From contig CALVAM010000007.1 of the NCBI GenBank assembly GCA_944325545.1, positions 1 to 64,000 on the forward strand: a DNA stretch of 64,000 nucleotides, written 5' to 3'. The notes below the pieces were generated by a model. That model did no database searches and was not told the DNA's origin. It saw only the letters and a list, made by a program, of their open reading frames with translations. Below, one piece after another: positions 3,777 to 14,195 of this stretch (the stretch's first letter is position 1; every line of letters begins with the position of its first letter). This DNA comes from Candidatus Gastranaerophilales bacterium. GTDB taxonomy: Bacteria; Cyanobacteriota; Vampirovibrionia; Gastranaerophilales; Gastranaerophilaceae. The translations under genes and the position numbers were made by a program.

Positions 3777-3805
3777 TTGCATAACGGATATATACGCGTT
3801 ATACT
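3777..3805 (+). promoter_or_regulatory. Sigma-70-like promoter of the flagellin
   Basis: TTGCAT (3777-3782) and TATACT (3800-3805) are separated by exactly 17 bp. Transcription from here would give a leader of about 200 nt before the flagellin start, containing the G11 tract and the hairpin. No sigma-28 type sequence was found. Confidence 0.6.
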
Positions 3806-3848
3806 GGGAATATAGATATGTGTACAACCCTAGGGATATGATGCTCAA

Positions 3849-4004
3849 ATGAATGGAATTATTGTTGGTTTAGAAATAGAAAGTATCTCAAACGCTTGTT
3901 CTGCAGGAGTTTTAGCTCTTCGGGGGGGGGGGCAATGCTCTATTTGTAAGCTTTTTGACGGGTTTTTCTATTCAAAAATCTCACTTTTTGGAAAAAGAAA
4001 GTGA
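3849..4004 (+). CDS. Possible leader peptide upstream of flagellin, with G11 tract
   Basis: A 51-codon frame starts at ATG 3849 and reads through the 11-G run as Arg-Gly-Gly-Gly. It ends at TGA 4002-4004, inside the flagellin ribosome site and 9 nt before the flagellin GTG. The peptide contains CSICKLFDGFFYSKI and has three Cys. It has no strong ribosome site of its own, although a tiny upstream frame ending in ATGA could feed ribosomes to it. Whether it is translated is unknown; the frame depends on the exact G count. It resembles no family I know. Confidence 0.3.
   Translation: MNGIIVGLEIESISNACSAGVLALRGGGQCSICKLFDGFFYSKISLFGKRK
3922..3932 (+). repeat. Homopolymer tract of 11 G
   Basis: Eleven consecutive G residues stand out in very AT-rich DNA, in the transcribed leader of the flagellin gene. 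Such tracts are typical slipped-strand mispairing sites in phase-variable surface genes of other bacteria. A change of one or two bases would alter the frame of the 51-codon leader ORF. Confidence 0.85.
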
Positions 4005-4005
4005 G
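3980..4005 (+). promoter_or_regulatory. Hairpin occluding the flagellin ribosome site
   Basis: CTCACTTTTT (3980-3989) pairs with AGAAAGTGAG (3996-4005), with one G-T pair, around a 6-nt loop. The right arm includes the GAG of the GAGGTG Shine-Dalgarno (4003-4008), so the closed hairpin would partly hide the flagellin ribosome site. The leader-ORF stop lies in the same arm. Confidence 0.5.
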
Positions 4006-4013
4006 GTGTTTTT

Positions 4014-5678
4014 GTGTCATTAACAATTAATACAAATCTTTCAAGTTTTATGGCACAGTCTTCATTAAAAAGTTCAACCTCATCATTAAATCAAGCGATA
4101 GAGCGGATGAGTACAGGGTTTAAGATAAATCATGCAAAAGACAATGCGGCAGGATATTCTATAGCGAACAGTATGTCCTCAAAGTTGTCATCCTATGAAG
4201 TAGCAACAGATAATACTTCATATGGTTTGGAGTTAATAAGTACCTCAATAAGTAATTTGGATTTAATAACCTCACATTTACAACGAATACGAGATTTAGC
4301 GGAACAGGCATCAAACGGGACATATGGAGTAGAGTCATTGACTGCACTTCAATCAGAAGTAGAAGCAAGAATGAATGAAGTAAATAGAATAATATCGAAT
4401 ACAGAATATAATGGAATAGGTTTGTTTAGTGATACGACAAATACTAACACAGTAACAACATTTGCTTCATCTAAGGATATAGTAGTAGATGAGAGTAAAC
4501 GAGTAGTAAATCAGACTACATTCCAATCAGGTGAAACATATTATTTAACGACAAGCGAAGATTTAGTAAAGCTCCAAGATTTAGTAAATAGTGGCGTAGA
4601 CACAACAAATGTGACTTTTAACCTTGCAAATGATATAAATATGAGAGGAGTGAGCTATAGAGGTATAGGTAAAGATTCAAAAAACGCTTTTAAAGGAATA
4701 TTCAACGGAAACAATCATATTATTTCTAATTTAACTATTAATTTGCCAATAACTAATTGTGTTGGTTTATTTGGTTATTTTGTTGATGGAATAATAGACT
4801 CTGTTGGCTTAGAAAATATAGATATTACCGGTAGAGATTTTGTTGGTGGTCTTGTGGGGGCTGCATATGGTAGTATAATTAATTCATATTCAACAGGTAG
4901 CGTGAGTGGTAATCAATATGTTGGAGGGCTTATTGGTGGACAACATGGTGATAGTATAATAAATTCCTACTCAACATGCGGTGTGAGTGGAGATCGATAC
5001 GTTGGCGGTCTAGTGGGTGGACAAGAAGGTGGTAGTATTATTAAATCTTATTCAATAGGTAAAGTAAGTGGAGCTGGAGCTTATGGTGCCCTTGTGGGAT
5101 ATGTTAATGCTAGTCCAATAATAAATGGATATTATGATAAAGAAAAATCAGGTCTGTTAGTTGGAGTAGGTTCAGGAGGAGGTTATAGCGGAACAGTCAC
5201 AGGATTAACAACTGCTGAATTAAAAAATTTGATAGATAATGGAACATTACCAAAATATGATTATGGAATACAAGGTGGTATTACAATAGGTGAAGGGCGA
5301 GAGTTTATTTTGCAGGTAGGAATAGATTCTTGTGTTTATTCCACAATAAAGTTTGATATGATGTTTGAGTTTGATTTGAGTGTGGATTTAACAACACAAG
5401 CCGGAGCATTGCAGTCTATAACGAATATAGATAGTGCATTGAGTTCAATAAATTCAAAGCAGACGGAATTAGGAGCTGCTGAAAATAAATTGATGTCGGT
5501 ATTGGATGCATTGAGTATAAATATAGAGAATTTGACTTCATCCTTGTCAACAATCCGAGATGCTGATATAGCAGAGGAAAGCAGCGAATATATAAGGAAT
5601 CAGATATTGCAGCAGGCAAGTGCGACATTATTATCAACAGCCAACCAAAACCCGAGTATAGCGTTACAGTTGTTGTAA
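4014..5678 (+). CDS. fliC: Flagellin with GLUG-repeat variable domain
   Basis: This 554-residue filament subunit has intact flagellin ends. The N-terminal D0/D1 region is residues 1-140 (MSTGFKINHAKDNAAGYSIA, 32-51). The C-terminal region, about 427-554, includes IRDADIAEESSEYIRNQILQ and ends ALQLL. The surface-exposed middle (about 145-425) is unlike ordinary flagellin domains. It has a segment typical of GLUG proteins (AFKGIFNGNNHIISNLTI, 225-242), then four to five GLUG repeats of 23-27 residues (YVGGLIGGQHGDSIINSYS and similar, 247-365). GLUG repeats are known from bacterial surface proteins such as IgA peptidases. The start is GTG after GAGGTG. It is a single gene with no other flagellar genes beside it. 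Confidence 0.95.
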   Translation: MSLTINTNLSSFMAQSSLKSSTSSLNQAIERMSTGFKINHAKDNAAGYSIANSMSSKLSSYEVATDNTSYGLELISTSISNLDLITSHLQRIRDLAEQASNGTYGVESLTALQSEVEARMNEVNRIISNTEYNGIGLFSDTTNTNTVTTFASSKDIVVDESKRVVNQTTFQSGETYYLTTSEDLVKLQDLVNSGVDTTNVTFNLANDINMRGVSYRGIGKDSKNAFKGIFNGNNHIISNLTINLPITNCVGLFGYFVDGIIDSVGLENIDITGRDFVGGLVGAAYGSIINSYSTGSVSGNQYVGGLIGGQHGDSIINSYSTCGVSGDRYVGGLVGGQEGGSIIKSYSIGKVSGAGAYGALVGYVNASPIINGYYDKEKSGLLVGVGSGGGYSGTVTGLTTAELKNLIDNGTLPKYDYGIQGGITIGEGREFILQVGIDSCVYSTIKFDMMFEFDLSVDLTTQAGALQSITNIDSALSSINSKQTELGAAENKLMSVLDALSINIENLTSSLSTIRDADIAEESSEYIRNQILQQASATLLSTANQNPSIALQLL

Positions 5679-7817: not shown

Positions 7818-10800
7818 ATGGCAGATATAAATAATTTTTCACAAATAGAAGAGAATTTTGATACTATTAAAACTTTATTGAATTCTATAAGGGCTCAAGG
7901 TATTTTAAATACTTCTGATGTTGATAAGTTGCTTTCAGGTATAAATTCTAAGCTGGAAAGATTGAATACTGGCGAAGATATTGATTTGATTAAGATATTT
8001 TTGTCAGAACTGAAGCAAAATTTGGATGAACGTCATAGTGTTTTAATTTCAAAATTCGGGGCAATAGAGTCTTTATTTACTAATTTGTTGAAAAATAGTG
8101 CAGATTCTTTAAAATCAAGTGAAGTTAAAGAATTATTTGATATTGTTGCAACTAATTTATCTGTGTTTTCTCGTGAAGTAGTTTCTCAAAAAGAAACTTT
8201 AACTGATATTATTTTACGCCTTGATTCGATGAGATCTGATGACTCTTTGAAAAAAGACGTTGTAAAAAATATTGCTGTTTTAAAAAATGATTTGGAACAT
8301 CTAAATAACGGATTTGATTCAATTGTTTTGAGTTTAAATGAAAATTTTAAAACTCTAATAAAAACTTTATCTAATGTAGATCAGTCTGATGCAATAAATA
8401 AGTTTGGCAGTGAAATTGCAGATGTTGTTGCAACTTCAAACTCTATTTTATCTGCAATTCAGTTATTAGATAAGAAAAATCTTCAAATAGAAGATTCTAT
8501 TAAAGTTTTAGCAACTCAAGATGATTTGTCCAGTACTAAAAAGTGGATCAGTGATTTAGCCGTACAACAAAATAACTTAAATAATGCTATCGAGGCTCTG
8601 TCTGATAAGTTTTATAAAGTAGATAATTTAGCTGAAAAAATTGATGCTTCGGTCAATATTGTTGTAGGATTAAAATCTTTAATATCTGATAATAGTGAAG
8701 AATCTTCAAAATTAATCTTAGCTAGTTTAGATAAAATAGAAAATTCTATCAAAGATGATATAACAGCTTTGAATGTTGAAGAATTTAAAGAGTTGGTAAA
8801 ACAAGCTTTAAATAGTTTAATGGATGGAACATTGAAACAAGATGTTTCTATAGATAATTTAAAAACTGAAATTGATAAATTAGAATCTTCAATAAATATA
8901 TTAGCATCAAGTATTAATGTTCAAGAAATAGTTTCATTGATAAAAAATTTAAAAGATTTTGTTACAGAACAGTTTGGGTTAAATACTGATAAAGTTATTA
9001 AAAAGATTGATATTAATGCCGATAAAACTATTGCTGAAATTGTTTCAAAGACACAAAATTTAGAAGATAAATTTAAAGAAATTTCATCAGAGGTTTCTAA
9101 TTTATGTGTAACTAATTTTGTTGAAATATCTGATAGTGTTAAAGCATTAAAATCAATATTATCTCAGCTTGATGAAAATTATGTTTCTGGAAATAATGCT
9201 ATTTTTTCTAATATAACTGACAGGTTGGCTGTTTTTGAAAATAGTTTAAAATTATCATTGGATAAACAAGAAGATTTTGTTTCTAATTCAGCAACAAAGC
9301 TTGTAGAACAATTAAATGAGGTAAAAAATTTATCAGGGGTTTTAGACTATAAATTGGATGCGTCTGTAATTGAGCTTAACAATGCAAAAAGAGAGTTTTC
9401 AGAATTAAAAACTTCTGTAAATGAAGTCTTAGGTTTAGATTTTGTTACTGCTGTGAAGGATTTAAGAGTAGATCTTTATGCTTCAAAGCAAGATTTAACA
9501 AATGTTGTCGAAAATTCTGCATCTGAAATTTCTGAAAAGCTTACTAATGATTTATTTAGTAAGTATGAGCTTTTGGTTAGTAAATTAGATAGTATGGAAG
9601 ATGCTTTTAAAAGTCTTCAAAAAATTTCATTAAATGATATAAAGCAATTATTAGACGGATTATCTTCTTCTCTTCTCGATATTTTATCATATGTAAGTAA
9701 TCAAAAAGATTTTGATATTGTTTCTATTGATAAAAAGTTGGAGAGTGTTACTGAATCAATAAAAGATAATAATTTGAATTATATAGAAGATGTAAGATCT
9801 ATTGTTGAAGTTATTAAAACTCAAGTTGAAGCAAATTTGATTCAAATTCAACAAGATACAATTAATAAAGTAAATGAATTAAATTCTACGATATATAAAT
9901 CTGAAGGTAGTATTAAAGAAGAAATAAAGTATTCTTACAATAAATTGTTAGAAATTCAAGATAAATTTACTGATATAGAAAATTCAATATCATTAAATAA
10001 TGAGAAGTTGACGACGGATATTTCTGATATTTTAAATTTTTCAAGTGAGTTTCGTAAAGATTTTGAACAAAAATTATTGAATTTAAAAAGTATATTTGTA
10101 GATAAGGTTGAAGAGTTTAAAAATGAAATTTCTTGTGAAAATACAGATAATTTGAGTGAAGTAAAATTTGTATCTGAGGATTTATTTACAAAAACTATAC
10201 AAGCTAATGAGGCTTTAAATAATGGTTTAAAAGGTGAAATTATTCAATTAATCGGAAGTTTAAAATTAAACATAGAAGAGTTAGCGGAGCAAATTATTGC
10301 AACTACTTTAAAAATTGAAACAGGAAATAAAGAAGTTTCAAATAATATTAAGTTAAATCTATCAAGTAGCTTGAAGTCTTTTGTTGAATTATTAACTGAG
10401 AAATTAGATAGTTTAGACAGTGGAGTTAAAAATAAAACAATAGAAGTTGAAAATAGTGTGCATATATTAGAAAATTCAATGAATTCTTCTTTAAGTTCAC
10501 TAGAGGGTATGTTGTCGGATTTAAAAACTGCTGTTACTTCTTCTGTGGGGAATTATACCAATGATTTACAAAAAGACAGTAGAGAAGTAAAAGATCTCGT
10601 TGTGGGTTTGAATGAAAATATACAAAATGTTCATTCTGATATTGATGCATTGAATGAAAAGACAACAAAGTCATTGTCATCTGTTTTAGCACAAATTTTA
10701 GATAATTTTGTTGCGTTAAAAACTATAATAACAACAATTAGTGAAAATTCTGCAAACAATATGAATGTCTTATTTGAAGATGTAAAAAAAGAATTTGAAG

Positions 10801-13800
10801 ATATTGGAAATTTAATTAATAATGTTGATTCTAATATTGATGAAGATATTACAAGACAAATTTCAATAATAGAAGATAAATTTGAACTTTTGGAAAAAAG
10901 AATAAGTGATTCATTTGAGCAATCACAAGATTTATTATCTAACGCGATTAAAACAGGTTTAGATGATGTAAATAGTGATTTAAGAGATACATTAACTCAA
11001 AAATTAGACGAATATGTTGCTAATTTTGATAAGTTGTTTACCAATTTATTAGAAAGTAATAAAAATCAAGTAGAATTTGTAAATTCTAGCGTAAAGTCTT
11101 TAAATACTGTATTGGGAGAAGCAATACAAAAACAAAATAAAGATATAGATATTAGATTGTCAAGTGTAGTTGATACTTTTAGATCAATGTTGGATGATAA
11201 TTTAAAAGTATCTTCTGATGAATATGAAAATTTGAGATCAAAATTAGCGGATTTATTTATTGGAATTGAACAATCAAATAAAAATATGATGTCAGATTTA
11301 AAAGCACAGTTTGACGATATAGTTAAATTTATTGATTCAGGCTTGGAAATACAATCTCAAGAGGTTGAAAACAGGGTATCAGACGTATTTACAAATATTA
11401 ATGATTTGAAAGATTCTATTTTGAATTTAAGTGGTTTGGCTAAAGAGAAATATGATATCTTATTGAATTCTGTTGACTTGGTCAGAAAGGATTTAGTAAG
11501 TGAGTTAGATACAACCAGGACTTATGTAGCAGAACAGAATTCTTCTATGATACATAGTTTGAGTAATAATTTAAGCGAAGATTTAAATAGTTTGTGTACT
11601 AAGCTTACTGATTTTATAAAGGATCAAGCTGTAAAAATAGAAAATTCAAATATTGAGTGTGTGTTGAATTCAAATAAGGATTTTGTGCTTGCTGTTAAAT
11701 CTTTAGAAGAAAAATTCTCTAGTTATTCAGAAAATATAAAAAATGGTATTGATGTAAACTCATTAGATTTAAAGTCAGATTTAGATAAAACTTATAATTT
11801 ATTGGATGATATTAGAAATTCTTTTGAAAAGGATATATTAAATCAATCAGAGACTATAAAGATAAATGTAAATAATTTGGAAACAACTATTACAAATTCT
11901 TGGGAAGAAGTTGAAAAGTCTATAGATGAAAAAGTTAATAATTTACTTGTGACATATACGGATTTGTCTGCTGGTGAGTTACAATCTTTAGAAGCTTTTG
12001 TTGATAAAATTTTGCAAAAATTATTGGATGTAAAGGCGAATTCAAATGATTGTGCAAATTTAGTAAAAGATTTTGTTAAACAAGAGATCAATTCTGTAGT
12101 TTCAGAGTTGGAGAAAGAATCTGACTTAATAATTTCTGATGTAATAGCCCAATTTAATTTGTTTAAGGATATTCAAAAAGATGAGTTGTCAAAAATGACT
12201 CTTCATCTAGAATCTACAATAGAAGATTATGTATATAATCATATTAATGATTTAAAATCTTATTTAGATGTAAAAACTGATAATACTGTAATCAATCATA
12301 AATTAGATAGTTTGATAAGCGATATAGATTCATCTGTAGATTCTGTACTAAATAATTTAAATAAATTACTAGAAACAAATGTTTTCGAAACAACTATTTC
12401 AGATTTAAAGAAAACAAATGAAGTTTTAGTTAGTACTATGTCTGATAACTTAAATGAAAAAATAGAAAAATTTATAACTGATAATATTAAAAAAGATATA
12501 GAAGAAAAATTTACTATATTTGATAAGAAATTTATAGATACTATTGTCGAAAATTATGAGGAGATAAAGTTAGTATCAACAAATTATAATTCATCTCTTG
12601 AAAGTTTAAAAGAGTTTTTAACTAATTTTGTAGATAAATTTAACCAAACAAAAAATGATTTGAATAATAATATATCAGATGTTTTAAATGGTATAAATAT
12701 TTCGATTGGAGAATTAAATAAAAGTTTCATAGATTTAAAGGCTCAAATTTTAAATAAATCATTTGACGAGGCTTTTCAAGCATCAATGAATACTCAAATT
12801 CGCGGAATAGAAGACTTGATATCACGTCAGTTTGGGTATTTGGAAGATATTAGTACTTTGTGTTGTGATAATCTTCCTGAATTAACGGAAATGAATGCTA
12901 TAGTTAAACATGGAATTGTTGTTTCTATAGATGCTCTTAGAAATCAATTGGATGATAGTTCTAAAAATATAGATAAATTGTTAAAGGATTTTAAGACAGA
13001 TGTGATAACACAATTTATTAATATATTTAATCAAATATCTTTTGTAGCAGAGCAAGAAGAAATAGTTGATTTTATTCAGGAAAAGCATTCTGAATTGATT
13101 ACGGTTTTAAGTCATATTGTAACAAATTTTGATGGAATAGATGGTGTAAAAGATTCTGTTACTGTAATTGATACAAAAATTGAAAATATAAAAGATGATA
13201 TAAAATCAATAAATGAAAAAATATCTTCGATAATGTCCTCAGAAGAGGATGTTGATTATGTGTACAGTTTGCAAGATTTAGAATCTGATATAGCAAATTT
13301 ACGTTTGATATTGGAAGATGTAAAAAAATCTAATAAATCAGAGGAATTACAAGAGTTACAAAAATCAACAGAAAATATTTATAATTTGGTTGAATCTTTA
13401 AAGGATAGTTTTCCTAAGTTTGAATATGATGAATTTAAGCAAGATTTTGAAGCATTGACAGAAGACATTGTAAGTATAAGTACAAGAACGAATAAGTTGA
13501 TATTGGCTTCTGATGAATCTTATAAAACATTACAGGATAATTTGCAGGATTTTAAACTAGTAATAAACGATTTGGATGAAAGGACCAGAAATTTTGCACA
13601 AGAAGCAGGATTTGATAAAATAGATAATAAATTATATTCAATAAATCAAATGATACAAAATGGTGCTAAAACAAACCAGGTATTTAATCAGGTATTTGAA
13701 TATTTAGCAGAGTGGGTTGATAAAGCAGGCGAAAAAATAAATAAAATTTCTGATAAAGTAGAAACATTAGATGAAATTGGTCAAATAAAAGTAATGTTGG

Positions 13801-14195
13801 AAGATTTAAAAGTCAGTTCGGAAGATAATTCTGAAAGTATTGAACTTATTGAAGCCTTAGGTAATATTTTTGATAAGCAGGTAAAGAAAATTTCATCATT
13901 AGAAATGAAACTAGATAGAATGATAGTTGAAACAACAATAAATAATAAAAATAATAAAATAGATATGTTACCAATGGAGACAACTCTAAATAAGTTTTTA
14001 GTAGCAATAGATGATAAGTTTTCTTCTCAACAAGAAAAGATAAATGTTTTAGAATCAAAGCTTGAAGAAGTATTGTCAATAGTAGATTCAAAAGATACAA
14101 CGCAGCTAACTAAAAAAGTCGGTGGTATGGATAGACAAATTGCGAAATTGAATAAGAGTATTGAAAAGATAGCATCTCATGTTGTTGAAAAATAA
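7818..14195 (+). CDS. Giant coiled-coil protein, 2125 residues
   Basis: The frame is unbroken for 6.4 kb. The protein is almost wholly heptad-like helix, rich in Leu, Ile, Asp, Glu, Lys, Asn and Ser and poor in Pro, Gly, Cys and Trp. No signal peptide, membrane segment or catalytic motif is visible. The helix is broken near residue 1675 by DISTLCCDNLPELTEMNAIV and by a few Gly/Pro positions. The C-terminus is a basic coil (QIAKLNKSIEKIASHVVEK). It could be a cytoskeletal, scaffold or chromosome-associated protein; long fibrous proteins of this type also occur as surface or gliding components. The next gene overlaps its last 17 bp, so it is co-transcribed with glcD, cutA and others. I recognise no family. 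Confidence 0.9.
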   Translation: MADINNFSQIEENFDTIKTLLNSIRAQGILNTSDVDKLLSGINSKLERLNTGEDIDLIKIFLSELKQNLDERHSVLISKFGAIESLFTNLLKNSADSLKSSEVKELFDIVATNLSVFSREVVSQKETLTDIILRLDSMRSDDSLKKDVVKNIAVLKNDLEHLNNGFDSIVLSLNENFKTLIKTLSNVDQSDAINKFGSEIADVVATSNSILSAIQLLDKKNLQIEDSIKVLATQDDLSSTKKWISDLAVQQNNLNNAIEALSDKFYKVDNLAEKIDASVNIVVGLKSLISDNSEESSKLILASLDKIENSIKDDITALNVEEFKELVKQALNSLMDGTLKQDVSIDNLKTEIDKLESSINILASSINVQEIVSLIKNLKDFVTEQFGLNTDKVIKKIDINADKTIAEIVSKTQNLEDKFKEISSEVSNLCVTNFVEISDSVKALKSILSQLDENYVSGNNAIFSNITDRLAVFENSLKLSLDKQEDFVSNSATKLVEQLNEVKNLSGVLDYKLDASVIELNNAKREFSELKTSVNEVLGLDFVTAVKDLRVDLYASKQDLTNVVENSASEISEKLTNDLFSKYELLVSKLDSMEDAFKSLQKISLNDIKQLLDGLSSSLLDILSYVSNQKDFDIVSIDKKLESVTESIKDNNLNYIEDVRSIVEVIKTQVEANLIQIQQDTINKVNELNSTIYKSEGSIKEEIKYSYNKLLEIQDKFTDIENSISLNNEKLTTDISDILNFSSEFRKDFEQKLLNLKSIFVDKVEEFKNEISCENTDNLSEVKFVSEDLFTKTIQANEALNNGLKGEIIQLIGSLKLNIEELAEQIIATTLKIETGNKEVSNNIKLNLSSSLKSFVELLTEKLDSLDSGVKNKTIEVENSVHILENSMNSSLSSLEGMLSDLKTAVTSSVGNYTNDLQKDSREVKDLVVGLNENIQNVHSDIDALNEKTTKSLSSVLAQILDNFVALKTIITTISENSANNMNVLFEDVKKEFEDIGNLINNVDSNIDEDITRQISIIEDKFELLEKRISDSFEQSQDLLSNAIKTGLDDVNSDLRDTLTQKLDEYVANFDKLFTNLLESNKNQVEFVNSSVKSLNTVLGEAIQKQNKDIDIRLSSVVDTFRSMLDDNLKVSSDEYENLRSKLADLFIGIEQSNKNMMSDLKAQFDDIVKFIDSGLEIQSQEVENRVSDVFTNINDLKDSILNLSGLAKEKYDILLNSVDLVRKDLVSELDTTRTYVAEQNSSMIHSLSNNLSEDLNSLCTKLTDFIKDQAVKIENSNIECVLNSNKDFVLAVKSLEEKFSSYSENIKNGIDVNSLDLKSDLDKTYNLLDDIRNSFEKDILNQSETIKINVNNLETTITNSWEEVEKSIDEKVNNLLVTYTDLSAGELQSLEAFVDKILQKLLDVKANSNDCANLVKDFVKQEINSVVSELEKESDLIISDVIAQFNLFKDIQKDELSKMTLHLESTIEDYVYNHINDLKSYLDVKTDNTVINHKLDSLISDIDSSVDSVLNNLNKLLETNVFETTISDLKKTNEVLVSTMSDNLNEKIEKFITDNIKKDIEEKFTIFDKKFIDTIVENYEEIKLVSTNYNSSLESLKEFLTNFVDKFNQTKNDLNNNISDVLNGINISIGELNKSFIDLKAQILNKSFDEAFQASMNTQIRGIEDLISRQFGYLEDISTLCCDNLPELTEMNAIVKHGIVVSIDALRNQLDDSSKNIDKLLKDFKTDVITQFINIFNQISFVAEQEEIVDFIQEKHSELITVLSHIVTNFDGIDGVKDSVTVIDTKIENIKDDIKSINEKISSIMSSEEDVDYVYSLQDLESDIANLRLILEDVKKSNKSEELQELQKSTENIYNLVESLKDSFPKFEYDEFKQDFEALTEDIVSISTRTNKLILASDESYKTLQDNLQDFKLVINDLDERTRNFAQEAGFDKIDNKLYSINQMIQNGAKTNQVFNQVFEYLAEWVDKAGEKINKISDKVETLDEIGQIKVMLEDLKVSSEDNSESIELIEALGNIFDKQVKKISSLEMKLDRMIVETTINNKNNKIDMLPMETTLNKFLVAIDDKFSSQQEKINVLESKLEEVLSIVDSKDTTQLTKKVGGMDRQIAKLNKSIEKIASHVVEK

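Follow-up and report, generated by a model that had tools for sequence, protein, structure and literature searches.

What does a run of 11 G do in the leader of a flagellin gene? The question is raised by the window, a 64,000-nt stretch of DNA from an uncultured Gastranaerophilales bacterium whose 1.82-Mb genome is 99.6% complete and whose near relatives are known as metagenome assemblies too. A sequence-only reading had taken the tract for a phase-variation switch, in which the number of G would decide whether leader ribosomes cross the flagellin start and open a hairpin over its ribosome site. Comparing sequences, we conclude with a probability of roughly 0.78 that the tract is a frame switch in a translated leader cistron of indifferent sequence, which would act by translational coupling.

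A G-tract inside the leader frame of a large flagellin

The locus consists of the following parts.

3777..3805, + strand: putative promoter (TTGCAT, 17 nt, TATACT), by direct reading
3832..3840, + strand: AGGGATATG box, the putative ribosome site of the leader, 8 nt ahead of the leader ATG
3849..4004, + strand: leader ORF, from ATG 3849 to TGA 4002-4004, 51 codons with 11 G
3887..3921, + strand: element CTCAAAC...TTC ahead of the G-tract, common to other tract-bearing leaders in aligned flanks
3922..3932, + strand: homopolymeric tract of 11 G, the proposed switch, identified from the sequence, shuffles and the genome count
3980..4005, + strand: hairpin of 10 bp by local fold, which runs into the first bases of the flagellin ribosome site
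4003..4008, + strand: flagellin Shine-Dalgarno sequence GAGGTG, by direct reading
4014..5678, + strand: large flagellin, 554 aa, GTG start, GLUG-motif central region

Because the putative promoter lies at 3777..3805, the tract falls inside the predicted transcript. The -35 match is weak and the promoter is absent from the list produced by a consensus scan. TATA sequence and box are conserved upstream of homologous leaders, and a AAGGATATG-like box followed by the leader ATG recurs before large flagellins. The downstream gene had been rightly named a flagellin, as it carries Flagellin_N and Flagellin_C domains and the GLUG motif. Further along the window, 7818-14195 encodes a 2125-aa coiled-coil-like protein, for which a sub-threshold apolipoprotein match was the only one.

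The tract (3922-3932) does lie within a 51-codon frame (3849-4004) that ends over the flagellin ribosome site, and the stops initially proposed for 10, 11 and 12 G all agree with our recomputation. At 10 or 13 G the frame reaches TAA 4021-4023, an overlap of 9 nt with the flagellin start (57 codons at 10 G); at 11 or 14 G it ends at TGA 4002-4004, 10 nt short of that start; and at 9 or 12 G it ends at TAA 3947-3949. The tract is the sole run of at least 8 G/C in the window, where 0.05 matches to 8 G are expected after shuffling, and at 11 G it exceeds the length that marks simple-sequence-repeat phase variation (at least 7 G/C, above chance).

We propose that the flagellin mRNA would start at the promoter upstream of the leader, and that ribosomes would load at the AGGGATATG box and make a leader peptide of unimportant sequence. 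With a tract of the right length modulo 3 (10 or 13 G), the leader frame would cross the flagellin ribosome site and end a few bases inside the gene, and passing or terminating ribosomes would unmask the site and feed flagellin translation. Leader ribosomes may also protect the leader from premature termination of transcription. With 9 or 12 G they would halt about 65 nt early and flagellin output would be poor, and with 11 G, the assembled state, they would halt just before the start, leaving output reduced or intermediate. As this stop falls so close that re-initiation is plausible, the 11-G state may be leaky. The on/off behaviour first envisaged thus survives as a coupled state at 10 or 13 G and a clear off state at 9 or 12 G, whereas 11 G may be partly active. 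Slipped-strand copying of the tract would flip the state heritably, switching large surface flagellins on or off. We infer the translation of the leader, its coupling, the rate of slippage, the lengths that count as on and the need for an open frame in flagellin expression from the comparisons that follow.

Tract-bearing leaders in this genome and its relatives

Runs of at least 9 G/C occur only three times in the entire genome, each followed by a flagellin start at a distance of less than 180 nt: the window tract on contig C7 (11 G), one on C10 (11 G) and one at C1:122645 (12 C). With nine flagellins counted in the genome, whose leaders at 500 nt each make up 0.25% of it, the chance of all three falling at flagellins is by arithmetic about 1.5e-8. 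At C1:135706, the start of a fourth large flagellin is preceded at 515 nt by a tract of 8 G, so that all four large flagellins (open frames of 557-600 aa) have tract-bearing leaders. Upstream of the five shorter flagellins (285-402 aa), no tract was found in the stretches read. The window switch, reported as a single case, therefore holds up as a real leader of which the genome has four. All four are closed for their box-linked ATG in the assembly. Three of them (C7, C10 and C1:135706) need one G fewer to open. The leader at C1:122645 (145-149 codons) holds two tracts, 8 G and 12 C, and is open only when both lengths fit, its 8-G tract needing 9 to open.

Across the genus, a survey of 17 other genomes found 5 of 90 tracts ahead of a flagellin, at a distance of 129-447 nt and each on the flagellin's strand, against an estimated 0.2 of 90 by chance. 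The five flagellins exceed 570 aa in all but one, whose size was not recorded. A second, frequent class of poly-G (L070-L097) lies away from flagellins, in a dispersed 'GGGGGTAAATATA' repeat or a 'GGGGTAAATA' context.

We gathered 98 flagellin starts with their upstream DNA. If a leader is translated up to its flagellin, the DNA from tract to start must be stop-free in one frame; we therefore counted stops in this segment by frame, with dinucleotide shuffles of each segment as the null. Frame +1 or +2 was open in 23 of 27 segments, where the shuffles predict 6.25 (P about 3e-21). Of the four exceptions, two have a stop that shares a single base with the start codon, one belongs to an unrelated short flagellin, and one has a nearer tract of 7 G from which it is open. 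When one-base overlaps with the start are allowed and five leaders are added, all 32 tract-bearing leaders of the large class in the genus and its sister genus have an open frame +1 or +2, and in none of the 32 is the flagellin frame open; as the leaders include homologous pairs, the effective number is lower than 32. All five additions, two of them from the sister genus, fit the rule, and most were fetched after it had been fixed. Among segments of at least 100 nt the sense strand is open in 17 of 17, versus 1 of 17 with any antisense frame open, a control that keeps composition and repeats constant. This comparison strongly supports the idea that the number of G sets whether leader ribosomes would cross the flagellin start.

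The open segments reach 507, 579 and 1066 nt and differ in sequence. Leader peptides are unlike one another, and a 226-residue piece of the longest leader found no match in Pfam; we thus reject a protein-coding meaning. A known RNA element is likewise rejected, as the leader has no match in Rfam. Part of the C1:122645 leader matches short dispersed repeats of the genome. The frame that would be coupled stops 0 to about +13 nt from the flagellin start in most leaders. We discarded the idea that the tract arose when the region around the flagellin ribosome site was duplicated, as a nominal p below 0.05 was reached in just 2 of 21 leaders. One large flagellin (L255, G062:C6) has its leader in the open frame, with 13 G, and yet an in-frame TAG after codon 77.

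Most tractless large flagellins are still preceded by an ORF that runs over the flagellin start, and a TATAAT...AAGGATATG box stands immediately ahead of many of these ORFs. Among the tractless homologues, those nearest to the window leader have an ORF that starts MNGIF and stops at TAA +9, the very position at which the window leader would end with 10 G. Short flagellins mostly have no overlapping leader ORF, and in a subset of flagellins of about 555 aa the leader is missing and the box adjoins the flagellin start itself. The leader thus has the look of a segment inserted between box and gene.

The proposal that tract lengths be compared in related genomes proved informative, as length differs between close homologues; since each species is one assembly, these differences lie between species or paralogues. 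An orthologous pair has 10 G (open) in one species and 12 G (closed) in the other. Three paralogues of one genome (G031), 91-96% alike, have 11 G, GGGGGGAGGGGG (12) and GGGGGAGGGG (10), and the frame is open only in the GGGGGAGGGG copy, which is probably locked because its tract is interrupted. Between two further genomes (G000 and G043) the tracts are 11 and 8 G long, and by scripted count the G043 leader on C26 requires 11 or 8 G to be open. If the best start is taken for each assembled allele, about 5 of some 27 have an open frame. A scan of genome contigs, which may omit entries from the genome of the window itself, returned no same-species variants.

Two observations bear on how these loci are assembled and exchanged. 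Four contigs of G043 (C7, C9, C30 and C31) break at leaders and flagellin starts, and near-identical copies have thus probably collapsed, leaving the repertoire undercounted. Three leaders (L142, L025 and L022, at G043 C26:36.8k, G022 C42 and G000 C10) share the same upstream flank and differ in leader type, with or without a tract, which suggests exchange of leader-flagellin cassettes between loci.

That no switch exists, the tract being a neutral relic or an assembly artefact and the leader ORF a product of chance, is very improbable to us. The genome encodes MutS1, many tracts of the genus lie away from flagellins, and a 65-C run beside a flagellin at one contig end (L104, end of G047:C2) is probably a sequencing or assembly artefact; all three would sit well with this account. 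It is opposed by the openness statistic, by the recurrence of the same architecture in many independent assemblies and by the placement of tracts within conserved flanks. Given the presence of MutS1, we also reject loss of mismatch repair as the driver of tract change, and slippage may be slower than in Campylobacter.

Together, these comparisons incline us to see a general frame-counting device in the Gastranaerophilales, placed before each variable member of the flagellin family. We find it somewhat probable, as one joint reading, that such leaders need openness only and hold a G-tract, that they range from about 25 to about 380 codons and can absorb intergenic repeats, and that lineages express a changing subset of flagellins while locked copies, with interrupted tracts or none, stay on.

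The hairpin and other routes of action

The hairpin at 3980-4005, thought to hide part of the flagellin ribosome site, does fold there, with an unpaired probability of 0.13 for the Shine-Dalgarno sequence, and is limited to the window copy and near-identical ones. Across the large class this probability averages 0.23-0.25, versus 0.63 for short flagellins and 0.24-0.26 for shuffled leaders. Because shuffled leaders give the same occlusion, an evolved hairpin is unsupported for the class, and we reject a conserved class-wide one: occlusion is no greater than composition predicts. Individually, the leaders of G043 C26 (p 0.016) and C10 (p 0.03) stand out against shuffles, and the window hairpin (p 0.2) does not.

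The same stem raises the main rival to coupling. Under attenuation the tract and frame logic would be unchanged, and a leader left untranslated would let Rho or the hairpin at 3978-4007 end transcription, coupling at the start codon being secondary. A terminator scan finds 12 pairs at 3978-4007 followed by GTTTTT, one hit versus 0.1 in shuffles, and leaders as long as about 1149 nt, if left untranslated, would be expected to attract Rho. However, the T-tail is absent from the homologous leaders of C10 and G043 C26, and nearly all leader frames pass the flagellin start, an overrun that protection from termination alone does not need. We therefore regard attenuation as possible, and coupling as the reading to prefer.

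A direct effect of the tract on the promoter, as at the tpr genes of Treponema pallidum, where poly-G upstream of surface protein genes works in this way (PMC7864442), is the least probable of the alternatives. In the window the tract lies inside an ORF, and the conserved TATA-box arrangement ends at TATACT, 117 nt upstream of it. Additionally, tracts across the leaders lie 47 to 1076 nt from the flagellin start, a range incompatible with fixed promoter spacing.

The tract could also act as nucleic acid, binding a C-rich small RNA with an effect graded by length, as RepG does on the tlpB leader of Helicobacter pylori. Like that leader (PMC8295292), the window tract would be transcribed. Furthermore, an element CTCAAACCC...CTTG...GCTTTT..TTC (3887-3921 in the window) directly precedes the tract in many of about 20 related, otherwise unrelated leaders; it is apparently read in different frames, and may thus be conserved as DNA or RNA. 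This reading leaves the stop-free non-flagellin frame, the tractless leaders and the closed flagellin frame unexplained, and one leader carries a C-tract in place of a G-tract. We consider it improbable, and favour a tract that acts through the frame of a translated leader.

Relation to known systems

PhasomeIt recognizes two classes of repeat tract, in a reading frame or in a promoter region (PMC6321876), and a tract in a leader cistron is covered by neither; such a tract would escape existing tools or be filed as intergenic. The poly-G/C switches of Campylobacter, Helicobacter and Neisseria resemble the window system in their G-tracts of 7-15, their surface-structure genes and their frame-set on/off states (PMC6321876). 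They differ in that the tract sits inside the switched gene, whereas in the window it sits in a separate upstream nonsense cistron, and for this reason the flagellin protein is never altered or truncated.

Other systems share single elements with the flagellin leaders. The tprE/G/J/L and tp0126 genes of T. pallidum likewise have poly-G upstream of variable surface protein genes (PMC7864442), but those tracts are in the promoter and act on transcription, whereas the window tract sits within a leader ORF, a long way from the promoter, and tract positions differ widely among leaders. H. pylori tlpB also has a length-variable G-repeat in its mRNA leader; there, RepG acts by antisense pairing graded by repeat length (PMC8295292), whereas in the flagellin leaders it is the reading frame (length modulo 3) that is conserved. 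Translation of a gene can be raised by a preceding ORF whose own sequence is unimportant and which runs through the ribosome site to overlap or abut the gene's start (review PMC12548453; PMC13255528). The synthetic nfORF is such an upstream ORF but holds no switch (PMC13255528), whereas in the flagellin leaders a homopolymeric tract of hypermutable type sits inside the upstream ORF.

In the literature searched, mostly open papers, we met no account of a tract inside a coupled leader ORF, nor any of phase variation in Melainabacteria. As far as searched, phase variation by simple sequence repeats through translational coupling is thus an apparently undescribed arrangement, and this would be the first phase-variation system described in the gut relatives of Cyanobacteria.

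Flagellins are sensed by hosts and bound by phages, and if the tract acts in a separate translated leader, expression would be switched without damage to the antigen. The leaders may also serve as a naturally occurring example of ribosome coupling that can be tested and that leaves the upstream sequence unconstrained. In Salmonella, Hin inverts a promoter by DNA inversion and so switches heritably among flagellin antigens. The outcome proposed here is alike, the switching of flagellin antigens, but the window system invokes no invertible element. If our reading is true, it would add a third mode of repeat-mediated phase variation, beside tracts in genes and tracts in promoters.
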